Of a DNA stretch of 43,882 nt, positions 8,283-38,163 are shown piece by piece. Each line of letters starts with the position of its first letter. The first letter of the stretch is position 1. The position numbers and the translations under genes were made by a program. The notes beneath the pieces are model-generated. The model was not told the DNA's origin. It saw only the letters and a program-made list of their open reading frames with translations, and made no database searches. The DNA is from Bacilli bacterium (GTDB taxonomy: Bacteria > Bacillota_I > Bacilli_A > RF39 > UBA660), in the NCBI GenBank assembly GCA_017459965.1, contig JAFUBW010000013.1, positions 1 to 43,882 of the forward strand, written 5' to 3'.

Positions 8283-8741
8283 ATGGACGAGAATAAAGTT
8301 ATTGATTTTATAAGTAAAATAAATCGATTATTTAGATTAGAATGGTTTGAATATAATCCTTTAGAATTAGATATATATGATCAAGAAAAAGAAATTGAAA
8401 ATATGTTTAAAAATGGTAATTGCGCAATATATGCAGAACTTTTATATGATTTATTAAAAAATAATGGTGCGGTTGTAGGAAAATCTAATGATCATGTTTT
8501 TATTAAATTATTTGATCGATATTATGATATTGCATCAGGTTTTAGAGATAATAAGGAAGAATTACAAGAAAGTGTTGATAAATATGGTTTTGATTCTTAT
8601 AATTTAGAGGATGAAAATGATAGAGAAAAATTTGAAGATTATAAACAAAATACTGGCATTAACAAGAATGTTGAATCATTATTAAATACAATAAAAGAAG
8701 ATATTTTAAAACCCGAAGATTTTTCTCCAGGTTCTAAATAA
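8283..8741 (+). CDS. Small predicted Cys/His/Asp (papain-like fold) protein
   Basis: One of only two plus-strand genes. The 152-residue protein starts after AGGATGGTGATATT. It has GNCAIYAELLYDLLKNNGAV (about 46-65), then NDHVFIKLFDRYYDIASG (about 69-86). That spacing of Cys, His and Asp is typical of NlpC/transglutaminase-like and other papain-fold enzymes, with the Cys at the start of a helix. A charged tail follows. No signal peptide is present, so it acts in the cytoplasm. The family and substrate are not recognised; the catalytic assignment is inference from pattern. Confidence 0.85.
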   Translation: MDENKVIDFISKINRLFRLEWFEYNPLELDIYDQEKEIENMFKNGNCAIYAELLYDLLKNNGAVVGKSNDHVFIKLFDRYYDIASGFRDNKEELQESVDKYGFDSYNLEDENDREKFEDYKQNTGINKNVESLLNTIKEDILKPEDFSPGSK

Positions 8742-29315: not shown

Positions 29316-30188
29316 TTATTTATCTTCGATATGTTTTAACTTATCTATTGATTTATTATTTTGAAGTAATGTCATTTGTTTTCTTGCTATTTCATTTAAT
29401 TTAATTAATCTATCATTTTGAGATATATTATTTTCTATCATACTTGCATTTAATACTTCTAAATTATTTAATATTATTAAATGAAGTAAATCGGCATTAT
29501 CCCTTATATTTCCATTTTTAGATAATTCACGATTATTATCTCTCCACTCCTTAGCTGTCATACCAAATAAAGAAACATTTAAAACATCAGCTTCCTCGGC
29601 ATAAACAAATCTTTTTTGTTTTTCTGTAAGAGTTGGAACTATATTTTCTTTAATACTATTTGTATGAACTAAATAATTTACTTTAGTTAATATTCTGCTT
29701 TCATGCCAATCTATCTTATTTTTATACGACTCATTTTTCTTTAATCTTTGAAATTCAGTTATTAAATATAGTTTAAATTCAGGTGAAAGCCAAGATGCAA
29801 ATTCAAAAGCAATATCTGGATGAGCAAATGTTCCTATACTATATTTACCAGAACTAGGTATTATGCCTATAGCATTTGTTAATTTTTTCCATTTTGTTGG
29901 ATTCATTAAAAATCTATTCCTTCCTGACAAATTATTTTTAATTAGGTGAAATTCCACCGAATTAAAATAAGGATTATGTAATTCTTCCCATAAACCATAA
30001 TAATCAAATGAATCTTTATTAGACATCCATTGTTTTATTAAACCAGATGGATCATCATTATTTTCATATTTAGCTATATCTGTAAGTGATATATAATTTT
30101 CATTATTTATTCTCATAACTCTTACTTCTTTTTCTTTAACATTTATTATTGTAGTTAAATTATTATTCATTTTTATATTATTAATCAT
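29316..30188 (-). CDS. KilA-N domain protein
   Basis: The protein is 290 residues from the ATG at 30186-30188, behind GGAGG; a longer frame to 30272 has no ribosome-binding site. The KilA-N domain spans about residues 20-140: YISLTDIAKYENNDDPSGLI, KQWMSNKDSFDYYGLWEELH, KYSIGTFAHPDIAFEFASWL, SPEFKLYLITEF. The rest is helical and may mediate contacts. KilA-N proteins are DNA-binding and come from phages and large DNA viruses; in bacterial chromosomes they are solitary accessory genes. It sits alone between parC and lemA with no other phage gene nearby. It shares an upstream motif with the DUF1016 gene. Confidence 0.92.
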   Translation of the reverse strand: MINNIKMNNNLTTIINVKEKEVRVMRINNENYISLTDIAKYENNDDPSGLIKQWMSNKDSFDYYGLWEELHNPYFNSVEFHLIKNNLSGRNRFLMNPTKWKKLTNAIGIIPSSGKYSIGTFAHPDIAFEFASWLSPEFKLYLITEFQRLKKNESYKNKIDWHESRILTKVNYLVHTNSIKENIVPTLTEKQKRFVYAEEADVLNVSLFGMTAKEWRDNNRELSKNGNIRDNADLLHLIILNNLEVLNASMIENNISQNDRLIKLNEIARKQMTLLQNNKSIDKLKHIEDK

Positions 30189-30225
30189 CTTTTTGACGCC
30201 TCCAATATATATATTCGTCAAAAAA

Positions 30226-30237
30226 ATAAAAATTCCC
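30226..30237 (-). promoter_or_regulatory. Shared upstream motif of the KilA-N gene
   Basis: GGGAATTTTTAT on the minus strand, about 49 bases before the start codon, identical to 25939-25950. I saw no further copies in the window. Confidence 0.45.
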
Positions 30238-30247
30238 CTAAAAATAA

Positions 30248-30273
30248 TAAAAAAATGACTAAAATTAGTCATC
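30248..30273 (-). terminator. Terminator after parC
   Basis: Stem ATGACTAA/TTAGTCAT with a 2-base loop and seven T on the minus strand. Confidence 0.85.
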
Positions 30274-34817: not shown

Positions 34818-34847
34818 AAGAAAAAAGATTCATTTTGAATCTTTTTT
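34818..34847 (-). terminator. Terminator of the gene at 34830-35495
   Basis: A 12-bp stem, AAAAAAGATTCA/TGAATCTTTTTT, containing the stop region. Confidence 0.85.
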
Positions 34848-35495
34848 TTCTTTAACCATACTTGCTATTTCATCTAAGATACATTGAACATTTTCACAAT
34901 GTTTATCACTAACAGTATCATTATATCCTAAATTAGCAGCTGTAATTGAATAAAAATATATTCTTACATAACCAGTCAATGTAGATGATGGATTTTTATC
35001 ATCACCTAAATTATTACTATCTTTAATTATTTTATCGTTAATTTTATCACTAGAAATTATTGAATCAGATGAATTATAACCTGCCTTCATGATAATAGAA
35101 TTTATAGACTCAGTAGAATTCATGTTCATTGAATGAATAGTTCTTATATCTGTATTACCACTATTATATGATGAATTACCAACATATATATATAGTTTCT
35201 CACCCTTTTTTAAATGAAGTTTACCAGACACATAATTGCTTGAAGCTGACCATGCTTTAATATTATATGTTCTATCTTTAGGAGCAGTAAAAACTTGAAC
35301 ATCCCCTGTATAATAAAAATTATATTCACTATATGCATTAGGTGTTTCTATATCATTAGTTAATTTATTTTTTAATTTACTATTTAAAACAGATGAATTA
35401 CCTAAAGTAAAAAGTAATACTCCCATAACTATTAAAAAGAGTACTAATAAACCAAATAATATAAACGATGTTGCAAATCCTCTATTATCCTTCAT
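34830..35495 (-). CDS. Membrane-anchored extracellular protein with a Gly-rich-receptor-like beta domain and NVQ-DE motif
   Basis: The protein is 221 residues from the ATG at 35493-35495, behind AAGGTGAAATGT. It begins MKDNRGFATSFILFGLLVLF, a pilin-like or simple membrane anchor. DVQVFTAPKDRTYNIKAWSA followed by LHLKKGEKLYIYVG (about 65-110) resembles the bacterial glycine-rich domain (PF12810 type) but has lost most of its glycines. Near the C terminus, CENVQCILDEIASMV matches the DNVQGAIDELY motif of the adjacent variable surface protein. It may therefore be a partner or relative of that system (inference). It has its own terminator. Confidence 0.85.
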   Translation of the reverse strand: MKDNRGFATSFILFGLLVLFLIVMGVLLFTLGNSSVLNSKLKNKLTNDIETPNAYSEYNFYYTGDVQVFTAPKDRTYNIKAWSASSNYVSGKLHLKKGEKLYIYVGNSSYNSGNTDIRTIHSMNMNSTESINSIIMKAGYNSSDSIISSDKINDKIIKDSNNLGDDKNPSSTLTGYVRIYFYSITAANLGYNDTVSDKHCENVQCILDEIASMVKEKKDSK

Positions 35496-35539
35496 ACATT
35501 TCACCTTATAATAAATATAACATACATATTGTTTTTATT

Positions 35540-35614: not shown

Positions 35615-35710
35615 TTAACTAGCAGATATATGAACAATTTGTCCACTAGCAGCAGTACAAGAATTACTACCGGTAGTCCAATGCCAATATAAAATACCAT
35701 CAGTTTTAAT
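35615..35710 (-). pseudogene. Orphan C-terminal module of a variable surface protein
   Basis: Starting 15 bases beyond the copy 2 stop codon, a 31-codon open stretch reads IKTDGILYWHWTTGSNSCTA, then ASGQIVHISAS and a stop. Trp/Thr/Gly/Ser content and balanced codon use look like a fibre tail, unlike the AT-rich spacers elsewhere in this window. It has no start codon or ribosome-binding site. I read it as the displaced 3' end of an earlier version of the gene. Confidence 0.6.
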
Positions 35711-35728
35711 TTAATTATATATTTTAAA

Positions 35729-36628
35729 TTATGAAATAGTACCAGTAAAAGCATAAGAAGAAATAATTGTAAATTGTTTATAATCACCAGGCATTGTTAA
35801 AATTATTTTTCCTTTTTGAACAGAAAAAGTAATTGTTTCACTAGAAGCTCCAAACTGATGATATTGTATTGAAGGACTATTTTGTTGTAGACCACTAGCT
35901 GCAAAAATATATCCTATTGGCTTACTGCCATATCCATATAAAAGAAATGTAGGAAACGCAGCACTACATGTTATAGTATATGTTCTGTGAGTATTCATAT
36001 CAACTTGAGCAACAGTATTTAATGAACCTATTTTTTTCATTATATCCGTCCCATTCACCATCACCGGATTTCCTCTTATATTCAAACTTCCTTCTCCATT
36101 TACTCCAGTACTACCTTTTGCAACAATATACATACCACCATTAGAAGCATTTCCAATAGCACCGGCATTTACACCATTAACATAAAAATTCGCCCATGTT
36201 TCACCATTACTAGCATTTACACCTAACCTCAAATCATTCCCATCAAAATAACTAGTCGCCTCATTTTTCCATCTACCTTCGAGCACGCCAATACGGCTAT
36301 CTAAGGAAGAATAATCAGAAGCATTTTGATAAAGTTCATCAATAGCGCCTTGAACATTATCAGAAGAAATACCAGAAGAAGAATTATCAAAAGAGACTTC
36401 AGAAGAAGAATATAAATAATTAGCAGCAAAAACAGAAATAATACTACTAAAGAAGATAGAAACAACACCAATAAGAAAAATAATTCTTTCTTTACTTTTA
36501 AAAACACCTATTCTATCATCAATATTATCATTAAAAACATTTTCTTTCTTTTCTTTCTTTTCTATTTCTTTACTATCTTTATTATATGAAGAAAGAACCT
36601 GGGTTTTATTAAAATGTTTAAGACTCAT
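35729..36628 (-). CDS. Variable surface protein, copy 2 (tail-fibre-like, phase-variable candidate)
   Basis: This 299-residue protein has a cytoplasmic start (MSLKHFNKTQVL), a Lys/Glu linker and a membrane segment (about 48-70, IIFLIGVVSIFFSSIISVFA). A Ser-rich stalk with a likely coiled coil follows (DNVQGAIDELYQNASDYSSL, LDSRIGVLEGRW, about 88-122). A first variable segment (about 123-173), a short constant block (NIRGNPVMVNG) and a second variable segment to the end complete it. Heads of this type resemble phage tail-fibre receptor domains; trimer formation is inferred. The visible G+C is above its neighbours. A run of ten G lies 30 bases upstream. Confidence 0.9.
   Translation of the reverse strand: MSLKHFNKTQVLSSYNKDSKEIEKKEKKENVFNDNIDDRIGVFKSKERIIFLIGVVSIFFSSIISVFAANYLYSSSEVSFDNSSSGISSDNVQGAIDELYQNASDYSSLDSRIGVLEGRWKNEATSYFDGNDLRLGVNASNGETWANFYVNGVNAGAIGNASNGGMYIVAKGSTGVNGEGSLNIRGNPVMVNGTDIMKKIGSLNTVAQVDMNTHRTYTITCSAAFPTFLLYGYGSKPIGYIFAASGLQQNSPSIQYHQFGASSETITFSVQKGKIILTMPGDYKQFTIISSYAFTGTIS
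36269..36449. repeat. Constant stalk/anchor repeat, copy 2 (pairs with 43702-43882)
   Basis: These 181 bases align without gaps to 43702-43882 with about six mismatches counted by eye. They encode the end of the membrane segment, the stalk and LEGRW. The match continues beyond the right edge of the window. Confidence 0.95.
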
Positions 36629-36671
36629 ATAAAATACCTATAATATCTAATATGTTACCCCCCCCCCGGGG
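36593..36671. repeat. 5' constant region of the variable surface-gene family, copy 2
   Basis: It pairs with 68-145. The leader and first 12 codons are shared. The homopolymer is C10G4 here and C9G4 in the other copy. Confidence 0.85.
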
Positions 36672-36675
36672 ACAC
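36647..36675 (-). promoter_or_regulatory. Poly-G tract in putative promoter (phase-variation candidate), copy 2
   Basis: On the minus strand the order is GTGTCC (36670-36675), CC, ten G (36658-36667), TAACA, TATTAG (36647-36652). This gives a 17-bp spacer if these are the -35 and -10 boxes, one base longer than copy 1. A second candidate -10, TATTAT, lies nearer the start. The weak AGGT ribosome-binding site is unusual for this window. Confidence 0.6.
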
Positions 36676-36682
36676 TTTTTTT

Positions 36683-36712
36683 TAAAATAAAAATAGACTT
36701 TAAGTCTATTTC
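36683..36712 (-). terminator. Terminator after gpmI
   Basis: A 10-bp stem, AAATAGACTT/AAGTCTATTT, with a 1-base loop and T-rich tail. It shields the variable gene from gpmI transcription. Confidence 0.8.
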
Positions 36713-38163
36713 ATTTCTTCTGGGATATCTAAATTCATATAATTTAATATGAAAGGAGCGATATCAGATAATTTATCAATATTTTTTATATCTATTTTTT
36801 CTTTACATACTATAAATGGTACTTTATTAGATGTATGTGATGTTACTACATTATTATCATCTATCATATTTTCACAATTACCATGATCTGCAGTAATTAT
36901 CAATGTATAATCTAATTCATCACATCTATTTTTAATTTTACCTAACATTTCATCAACTACTTCCACTGCTTTTATAGTAGACTTATAATTACCTGTATGT
37001 CCTACCATATCACCATTTGCGAAATTAAGTAATATAAAATCATAATTATTATCCATTTCTTTTATTAACTCTTTTGTTATTTCAGGTGCACTCATTTCTG
37101 GTTTCATATCATATGTTGGAACTTTTTTAGATGGTATTAATATTCTTTTTTCGTTTTTTAATTCTATATCTTTTCCACCATCAAAGAAATAAGTTACATG
37201 AGCATATTTTTCAGTTTCTGCAATTCTAAGTTGTTTTTTATTTAACTTAGATAAATAAATACCTAGTGTATTTTTTATATCTTCTTTTTTAAATGCTATA
37301 TCACTTTTAATATTATCAGATACATACATCATTGTAGTTAAATAAATATTTTTTAAGTCTTTGTTAGTTAGTTCATCTAATATTTCAATTGATCTATCAG
37401 GTCTAAAGTTACACCAAATAATACTATCATTATTGCTTATATTACCTTCTTTGTTTAGAATTGCTGGTACTATATATTCATCAGTAATATTATTTTTATA
37501 ACTATCATTTATATATTTTTTATAATCATGTATAACTATACCTTCAGAATATACCATAGCATCATATGCCTTTTTAATTCTATCATATCTTTTATCTCTA
37601 TCCATAGCATAATATCTACCTGATATTGTACTTATTTTACCTATATTATATTTTTTAATTTCTTTTTCCAATTCTTCTATATATTTAATTGAATTTTCAT
37701 AAAATGTATCTCTTCCATCAGTAAATATATGAAAATAAACATTATTAAAATTTTCTTTTTTGCATAATTTTAAAACTGCTTTTACATGATTTATATGTGA
37801 ATGTACTCCACCATCAGAAAGTAATCCTAAAATATGTAATTTAGAATTATTTTTTTTAGCATGATTAATTGCATTTATCAATGATTCATTATTATAAAAT
37901 GATTCATCTTTTATTGCTTTATTTATAAGTTCTAAAGATTGATATATTATTCTACCTGCACCTATAGTTAAATGTCCTACTTCACTATTACCCATTTGAC
38001 CATCTGGAAGTCCAACATAATTACCTGATGCATTTATATTTTTATTTGGATATTTACTTATTATATTATCTAAATTTGGTGTATTTGAATTAATAAGTGC
38101 ATTACCTTCTTTTTTATTACTTATACCTACGCCATCTAAAATACATAATAATATTTTTTTCAT
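36706..38163 (-). CDS. gpmI: 2,3-bisphosphoglycerate-independent phosphoglycerate mutase
   Basis: This 485-residue protein starts MKKILLCILDGVGISNKKEG. The active-site Ser lies in GQMGNSEVGHLTIGAGR (about 56-72). Metal ligands are seen in ILGLLSDGGVHSH, GRDTF, NFANGDMVGHTG, TADHGNCENM and HTSNKVPF. It interconverts 3- and 2-phosphoglycerate in glycolysis and is Mn-dependent. This enzyme type is typical of spore formers, where it is silenced by low pH in the forespore. The length is slightly under the usual 510 residues. It starts behind GGAGGGTTAT, 27 bases after the lipoprotein gene. Confidence 0.97.
   Translation of the reverse strand: MKKILLCILDGVGISNKKEGNALINSNTPNLDNIISKYPNKNINASGNYVGLPDGQMGNSEVGHLTIGAGRIIYQSLELINKAIKDESFYNNESLINAINHAKKNNSKLHILGLLSDGGVHSHINHVKAVLKLCKKENFNNVYFHIFTDGRDTFYENSIKYIEELEKEIKKYNIGKISTISGRYYAMDRDKRYDRIKKAYDAMVYSEGIVIHDYKKYINDSYKNNITDEYIVPAILNKEGNISNNDSIIWCNFRPDRSIEILDELTNKDLKNIYLTTMMYVSDNIKSDIAFKKEDIKNTLGIYLSKLNKKQLRIAETEKYAHVTYFFDGGKDIELKNEKRILIPSKKVPTYDMKPEMSAPEITKELIKEMDNNYDFILLNFANGDMVGHTGNYKSTIKAVEVVDEMLGKIKNRCDELDYTLIITADHGNCENMIDDNNVVTSHTSNKVPFIVCKEKIDIKNIDKLSDIAPFILNYMNLDIPEEMK

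Follow-up and report, generated by a model that had tools for sequence, protein, structure and literature searches.

Probable slippage switching and recombinational shuffling of a dispersed family of predicted exported proteins with tail-fibre-like modules in an uncultured Bacilli bacterium

Results and Discussion

The gene at positions 35729–36628 (minus strand) of the window, by which we mean the whole stretch of 43,882 nucleotides that was analyzed, belongs to a dispersed multigene family whose products are probably exported ligand-binding proteins, switched by slippage in their leaders and shuffled by recombination among the copies. The window makes up the entire contig C19, one of 23 in a metagenome-assembled genome of 1.06 Mb with a G+C content of 24.4%. 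In the mechanism we propose, each protein would comprise a K-rich N-terminus, a hydrophobic export segment, a tail-fibre-type stalk and one or two tail-fibre-type heads, with every copy placed under its own promoter region containing a run of 8–10 G. Whenever replication slippage added or removed a G, the promoter geometry would change and the copy would be turned on or off at random. Heads would move between copies through exchange, probably RecA-type homologous recombination, in the stalks, which are near-identical, and in the short block GNPVMVNG. The product would be displayed outside the cell, where it may bind glycans or other ligands, and a clonal population would come to hold changing sets of binding heads, probably in the service of adhesion or of escape from immunity or phages. 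The features of the window on which the analysis draws are as follows.

35729–36628, minus strand: copy 2, a 299-aa predicted exported protein (anchor, stalk, head 1, constant block, head 2)
36629–36690, minus strand: leader (promoter region) of copy 2, AAAAAAAAGTGTCCCC-G10-TAACATATTAGATATTATAGGTATTTTAT
36658–36667, minus strand: G10 tract in the copy 2 leader
36419–36493, minus strand: hydrophobic export segment of copy 2, residues 46–70 (from sequence; modelled as a helix at low confidence)
36269–36409, minus strand: stalk of copy 2 (SSSEVSFDNSSSGISSDNVQGAIDELY...LEGRW), residues 74–120, constant block 1, with a phage tail-fibre-like motif
36074–36268, minus strand: head 1 (variable cassette 1) of copy 2
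36050–36073, minus strand: constant block 2 of copy 2, GNPVMVNG
35729–36049, minus strand: head 2 (variable cassette 2) of copy 2
35615–35710, minus strand: candidate remnant of an older head 2 (IKTDGILYWHWTTGSNSCTAASGQIVHISAS*), just past the copy 2 stop codon
43138–43882, minus strand: copy 3, 5' end lost at the contig end
1–103, minus strand: copy 1, first codons only (contig end)
133–141, minus strand: G9 tract in the copy 1 leader

The family in the source genome

An anchor-stalk search places the family on at least 14 contigs of the genome, many of which end inside it, as is expected of near-identical repeats. Genome-wide, there are ten gene 3' ends and 13 copies led by poly-G; in 12 of these the leader is intact, and in one it is interrupted by a mobile element. 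A separate leader precedes every one of the 13 copies whose 5' end can be seen, and the tract is 8, 9 or 10 G long among leaders that are otherwise near-identical (a comparison between paralogues). All 14 tracts of eight or more G in the genome lie in leaders of this family, against roughly 0.1 expected by chance according to our own estimate from base composition. Two sister copies, on C21 and at the end of C15, have no poly-G.

The description of the copies as single-gene units, given in an earlier note on this DNA, is supported; the note had also placed all of them downstream of unrelated housekeeping genes. The latter holds for most copies, but the neighbor on C18 lies on the opposite strand, some neighboring genes encode small membrane proteins, and on C21 the relative that lacks poly-G follows another copy in tandem. 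The upstream neighbors, read from translations with a profile check for GpmI only, include SufB, RNase J, topoisomerase I, EF-P, a Mn-dependent pyrophosphatase, a prepilin peptidase, the Smr end of MutS2 and GpmI. The leader of copy 2 begins directly behind the terminator-like hairpin of gpmI (36706–38163, iPGM domains by profile). Since gpmI in five other species of the genus has a sortase-like gene directly behind it, without the unit or a G tract, the unit at this site is lineage-specific.

Exchange of blocks between copies

Blockwise comparison confirms that copies 2 and 3 alternate between constant and variable blocks. Their stalks are 96% identical in DNA and 98% in protein, the first heads share 30% and the second heads 19% protein identity, and GNPVMVNG, proposed earlier as a second constant block, is identical in both although short (8–11 aa). 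The figure of about 97% DNA identity previously given for anchor and stalk was close to what we obtain, namely 93.7% over a 207-nt BLAST segment that reaches into the head, with the anchor comparable in part only because copy 3 is truncated by the contig end. When homologues were collected and aligned block by block, modular exchange was also seen among the ten gene 3' ends, where LEGRW-type stalks are 86–99% identical in DNA, first heads mostly share 19–49% protein identity, and the ten second heads are unrelated (at most 28%).

A stretch of 141 nt, made up of the last ~115 nt of head 1 and the block that follows, is 100% identical between copy 2 and the copy at the end of C20, which leaves copy 2 just past VNG and runs into an unrelated head 2. 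C12, the start of C10 and the end of C23 have 141 nt of another head 1 in common and then continue into two unrelated second heads, while C16 and C21, with unrelated anchors, have 142 nt of a YPVGSIY-type head in common at 98.6%. Because the same head 1 occurs with different second heads, and the same head under unrelated anchors, these patterns reflect exchange and not plain divergence. Paralogues of ancient origin, with heads driven apart by strong diversifying selection and no recombination involved, would agree with the fact that first heads of several copies can still be aligned (up to 49% protein identity), yet they would hardly yield identical first heads joined to unrelated second heads or near-identical heads under unrelated anchors, and we regard this origin as very improbable. 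The mosaicism expected of head exchange by homologous recombination is thus found at both proposed junctions, the stalk/head border and GNPVMVNG, with an enzymology that would be the RecA-type one given above. C12 is 100% identical to copy 2 over the leader and first codons (91 nt), differs from it in the hydrophobic segment, and has a stalk 97.6% identical to that of copy 3; the hydrophobic segment, too, is mosaic.

It is also important to consider how far the assembly could create such a picture. The exact 141-nt overlaps resemble what would be the k-mer size of the assembler and so represent graph junctions, which establish that the data contain both continuations and not that either gene is assembled in full. 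These overlaps, together with the many contig ends inside the family, are what chimeric metagenome contigs mimicking a constant/variable pattern would produce. Complete copies nevertheless lie inside long contigs (C19:36k, C20:259k, C10:10.7k), the independent genomes G024 and G161 have the same architecture, and the sequence common to C16 and C21 contains two mismatches and hence is not a k-mer overlap. A pure assembly artefact was rejected, and chimerism as the source of the pattern seems to us scarcely credible.

Orphaned fibre-tip-like ORF pieces were observed straight after the stop codon of copy 2 (35615–35710, minus strand) and behind the gene at C11_end (locus L066); such short pieces are possible scars of earlier head replacement. 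An identical 33-nt terminator-like hairpin occurs downstream of C11_end and C7_end (L066 and L067), whose heads differ, which suggests that 3' flanks are copied along with the unit.

The poly-G tract as a promoter spacer

In the source genome of the window the leader reads AAAAAAAGTRWCCC(C)-G8-10-TAAYAT..., with the tract preceding a -10-like TAAYAT/TATTAT. No canonical -35 is recognizable upstream of the tract in this genome (promoter pattern count 0), and for this reason the switch proposed for it is inferred from relatives. The genus of G024, within the same taxonomic family, has 13 anchor-stalk genes, and those with upstream sequence stand behind TTGACA-N9-G(9 or 10)-TAGAAT/TATATT, an arrangement that makes the tract a promoter spacer of 18 or 19 nt. 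An independent genus, that of G161, repeats the architecture: about 40 anchor-stalk units with the promoter TTGACAATACCACCCT-G9-11-TATTAT (of the form TTGACA...G9-11-TATTAT) and heads that are Gp10_C, small tip-like or larger. Tract lengths differ between paralogues, with G9–14 in G019 and G8–11 in G161. A slippage-prone promoter spacer is the best reading of the poly-G, and in the other genera it is clear.

At the level of the taxonomic family, the pattern TTGA..G8+..TA...T was found in 89 of 291 genomes, with up to ~60 matches per genome (overlapping matches counted), and a reversed-pattern control stayed at or near zero. A TATAAT-like hexamer lies 16–20 nt from TTGACA in most of 58 distinct promoters that were examined. 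An N-terminal hydrophobic segment is encoded by 37 of 41 genes behind poly-G promoters and by 20 of 69 other ORFs at the same loci (Fisher p = 1.8e-10), the former including pilin-like, anchor-stalk and other exported proteins. Matches to the anchor-stalk profile occur in 42 of 193 family genomes, which have up to 32 or more copies each (32 were scored per genome), and the head-1 profile, among the 291 genomes, was found in the source genome of the window alone; a related protein occurs in a same-genus genome (G002) from outside that draw.

The tract could alternatively be a recombination or replication feature, such as a G-quadruplex or a break site, which would account for the alike leaders and the cassette exchange without any transcription switch. 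That no -35 is visible in the source genome, that the conserved unit begins at AAAAAAGT just upstream of CCC(C)G8-10, and that a serine-recombinase element is inserted in one tract would all be in keeping with such a role. In other genera, however, the tract is exactly what separates TTGACA from a TATAAT-like hexamer, and this in many promoters unrelated to one another, most of which lead genes encoding hydrophobic N-termini, and we therefore consider a recombination feature unlikely and retain the spacer reading.

Poly-G spacer promoters (L165–L221) also precede pilin-like genes, lipoproteins and SipW/TasA-like exported proteins. Such promoters may point to a lineage-wide regime of phase variation that extends beyond the anchor-stalk family. 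We are evenly divided on the wider proposal of a family-wide poly-G promoter repertoire for exported proteins combined, in some members, with phage tail-fibre stalks and heads recruited as interchangeable tips, amounting to at most ~45 switching genes per ~1–1.5 Mb. If true, an uncultured, genome-reduced, gut-type Bacilli lineage would hold up to about 45 independently switching and recombining display genes; phase variation at such a scale is best known from pathogens, e.g., Neisseria, and here it would occur in an uncultured commensal-type lineage. The promoter rule TTGACA-spacer-G8-14-TATAAT would make exported variable proteins predictable from sequence.

The element inserted in one family leader (L078, contig C23:142–3918, same genome) is ~3.8 kb long, lies inside the poly-G tract with nine G on either side, and cuts the gene off from the upstream portion of its leader. 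It encodes a 663-aa large serine recombinase and a Bro-N protein, and its end carries AAAGAACCTGGGTTT, the reverse complement of a conserved stretch of the family's first codons. The recombinase (L078:345–2336) has a LysM domain (PF01476, 5e-11, above cutoff) inside its recombinase domain, an odd pairing for a DNA enzyme.

Relation of heads and stalk to phage tail fibres

The resemblance of the heads to tail fibres, as noted earlier, is borne out by sister copies and by the stalk, but copy 2's own head shows weak phage similarity. Gp10_C (PF21939, curated cutoff 27) is matched by C21 with 40.6 bits (6e-10), by the C15 end with 55.9 bits (1e-14), and by three G161 proteins tested with 49.7–85.0 bits (1e-12 to 1e-23). 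C21 and the C15 end also match phrog_6465 “tail protein” (1e-11 and 6e-8, respectively), the C10 head matches phrog_16122 “virion structural protein” (3e-9) and a repeat present in 24 phage records, several of which have a tail or virion annotation, and the second head at the C10 start matches a virion protein family (2e-5). The head of copy 2 stays below the Gp10_C cutoff and has a weak tail-family match only (phrog_13289, 3e-4); searches of phage and viral collections returned no match for the heads of copy 2 and the C20 end. The stalk alone had no match among phage sequences. The stalk motif YDN..SG..S.NVQGAIDEL, though, forms three tandem repeats in one gene of viral contig L159. That gene has a match to phrog_2137 “tail fiber protein” (1e-11), a profile that the family's own stalks match weakly (0.03 and 0.003).

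The family has in common with phage tail-fibre and Gp10_C receptor-binding proteins the head YPVGSIY...GGTW...HTH...YMYKR, present in some copies, and the repeated YDN..SGL.S.NVQGAIDEL stalk, but differs in consisting of single host chromosomal genes with an export segment, outside phage operons. In a test for virion structural clusters, the copies appeared singly, surrounded by cellular genes. Tail-fibre genes of a decaying prophage or tailocin would explain the resemblance of heads and stalk; they would not explain why the copies all stand singly behind unrelated genes, each under a leader of its own, why the surroundings of copy 2 showed no tail or capsid genes, or why the N-terminal export segment is kept across genera. 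A prophage remnant was rejected on the lone genes, their leaders, the surroundings of copy 2 and the conserved export segment, and we attach very little weight to a prophage or tailocin origin. Under the preferred reading, modules related to phage receptor-binding proteins would have been turned into host-encoded binding heads.

Export and display

The N-terminal export segment is conserved across genera, and in nearly all homologues the hydrophobic stretch is followed by a conserved small-residue, A-x-A-like motif (VFAAN, VYAAN, VYSAE...), which would fit signal-peptide cleavage as well as the bitopic anchor proposed earlier. Cleavage and release, giving soluble lectins or phage decoys and not surface adhesins, is accordingly a possibility, one that we hold to be the less probable course. 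It agrees with this motif and with copy 2, in which no sorting signal or lipobox was seen, whereas the hydrophobic segment, at ~22 residues, has the length needed to cross the membrane, and the N-terminus of some copies is extended by 45 aa, which is unusual for a signal peptide; both speak against release. Structure models were of little help, as those of copy 2 (mean pLDDT 39, from a 2-sequence alignment) and of relative L135 (pLDDT 40) were uninformative and too poor for a fold search.

Comparison with known systems

In porA-type promoter phase variation of Neisseria, a poly-G tract lies between -35 and -10. The Bacilli promoters, as seen clearly in the genera of G024 and G161, are alike in having a homopolymeric G spacer before genes for putative surface proteins, with a length that varies (here between paralogues), and differ in that a single promoter type serves tens of loci per genome across many genera of an uncultured family, chiefly in front of genes for exported proteins. 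PblA and PblB of Streptococcus mitis and S. pneumoniae are phage tail proteins that act as adhesins (PMC4508584). PblB thus offers a precedent for a phage-tail-type protein as bacterial adhesin, the role we propose for the Bacilli family, but it is prophage-encoded, whereas the family consists of host genes at multiple loci with interchangeable heads and poly-G leaders. Mycoplasma vlhA yields a mosaic surface antigen by homologous recombination in near-identical blocks (PMC4206340). Both vlhA and Neisseria pilE/pilS resemble the family in forming mosaics between such blocks, and both differ in having one expression site with promoterless donors, while each Bacilli copy with a 5' end has its own leader; silent-cassette gene conversion was rejected on this observation in all 13 copies. 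A shufflon was likewise rejected, with no inverted repeats, either of shufflon or of invertible-promoter type, around the copy 2 gene in the window (repeats of at least 40 nt screened). The whole-block exchange is also unlike the adenine-directed mutagenesis of diversity-generating retroelement targets.

By analogy, the system would pair promoter phase variation of the porA type with antigenic mosaicism and would draw on phage-tail modules, as PblB does. The earlier note knew of no named system with this combination, and a literature search on RF39, poly-G promoters and tail-fibre-like host proteins, with most subscription journals outside its scope, found no paper describing it. Such a system would equip reduced-genome bacteria with a concrete way to adhere and to evade, would amount to a large natural collection of modular binding heads, and would explain the assembly breaks at family genes.

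Other genes in the window

Several further genes were observed in the window. A pilin-like protein (RGFATSFILFGLLVLF...) at 34830–35504 (minus strand) has at its C-terminus a stalk-like motif, YNDTVSDKHCENVQCILDEI, i.e., at the opposite protein end relative to the anchor-stalk family. Positions 1037–1596 consist of five 84-nt tandem repeats, 72–81% alike, inside an ORF at 935–1687. A putative KilA-N-like (phage-type DNA-binding) protein, read from its translation, is encoded at 29316–30272 (minus strand) between topoisomerase/gyrase subunit genes and a LemA-like gene, and a phage YunG-like protein (PF24591, 8e-7) is encoded by a lone plus-strand gene at 8283–8741.
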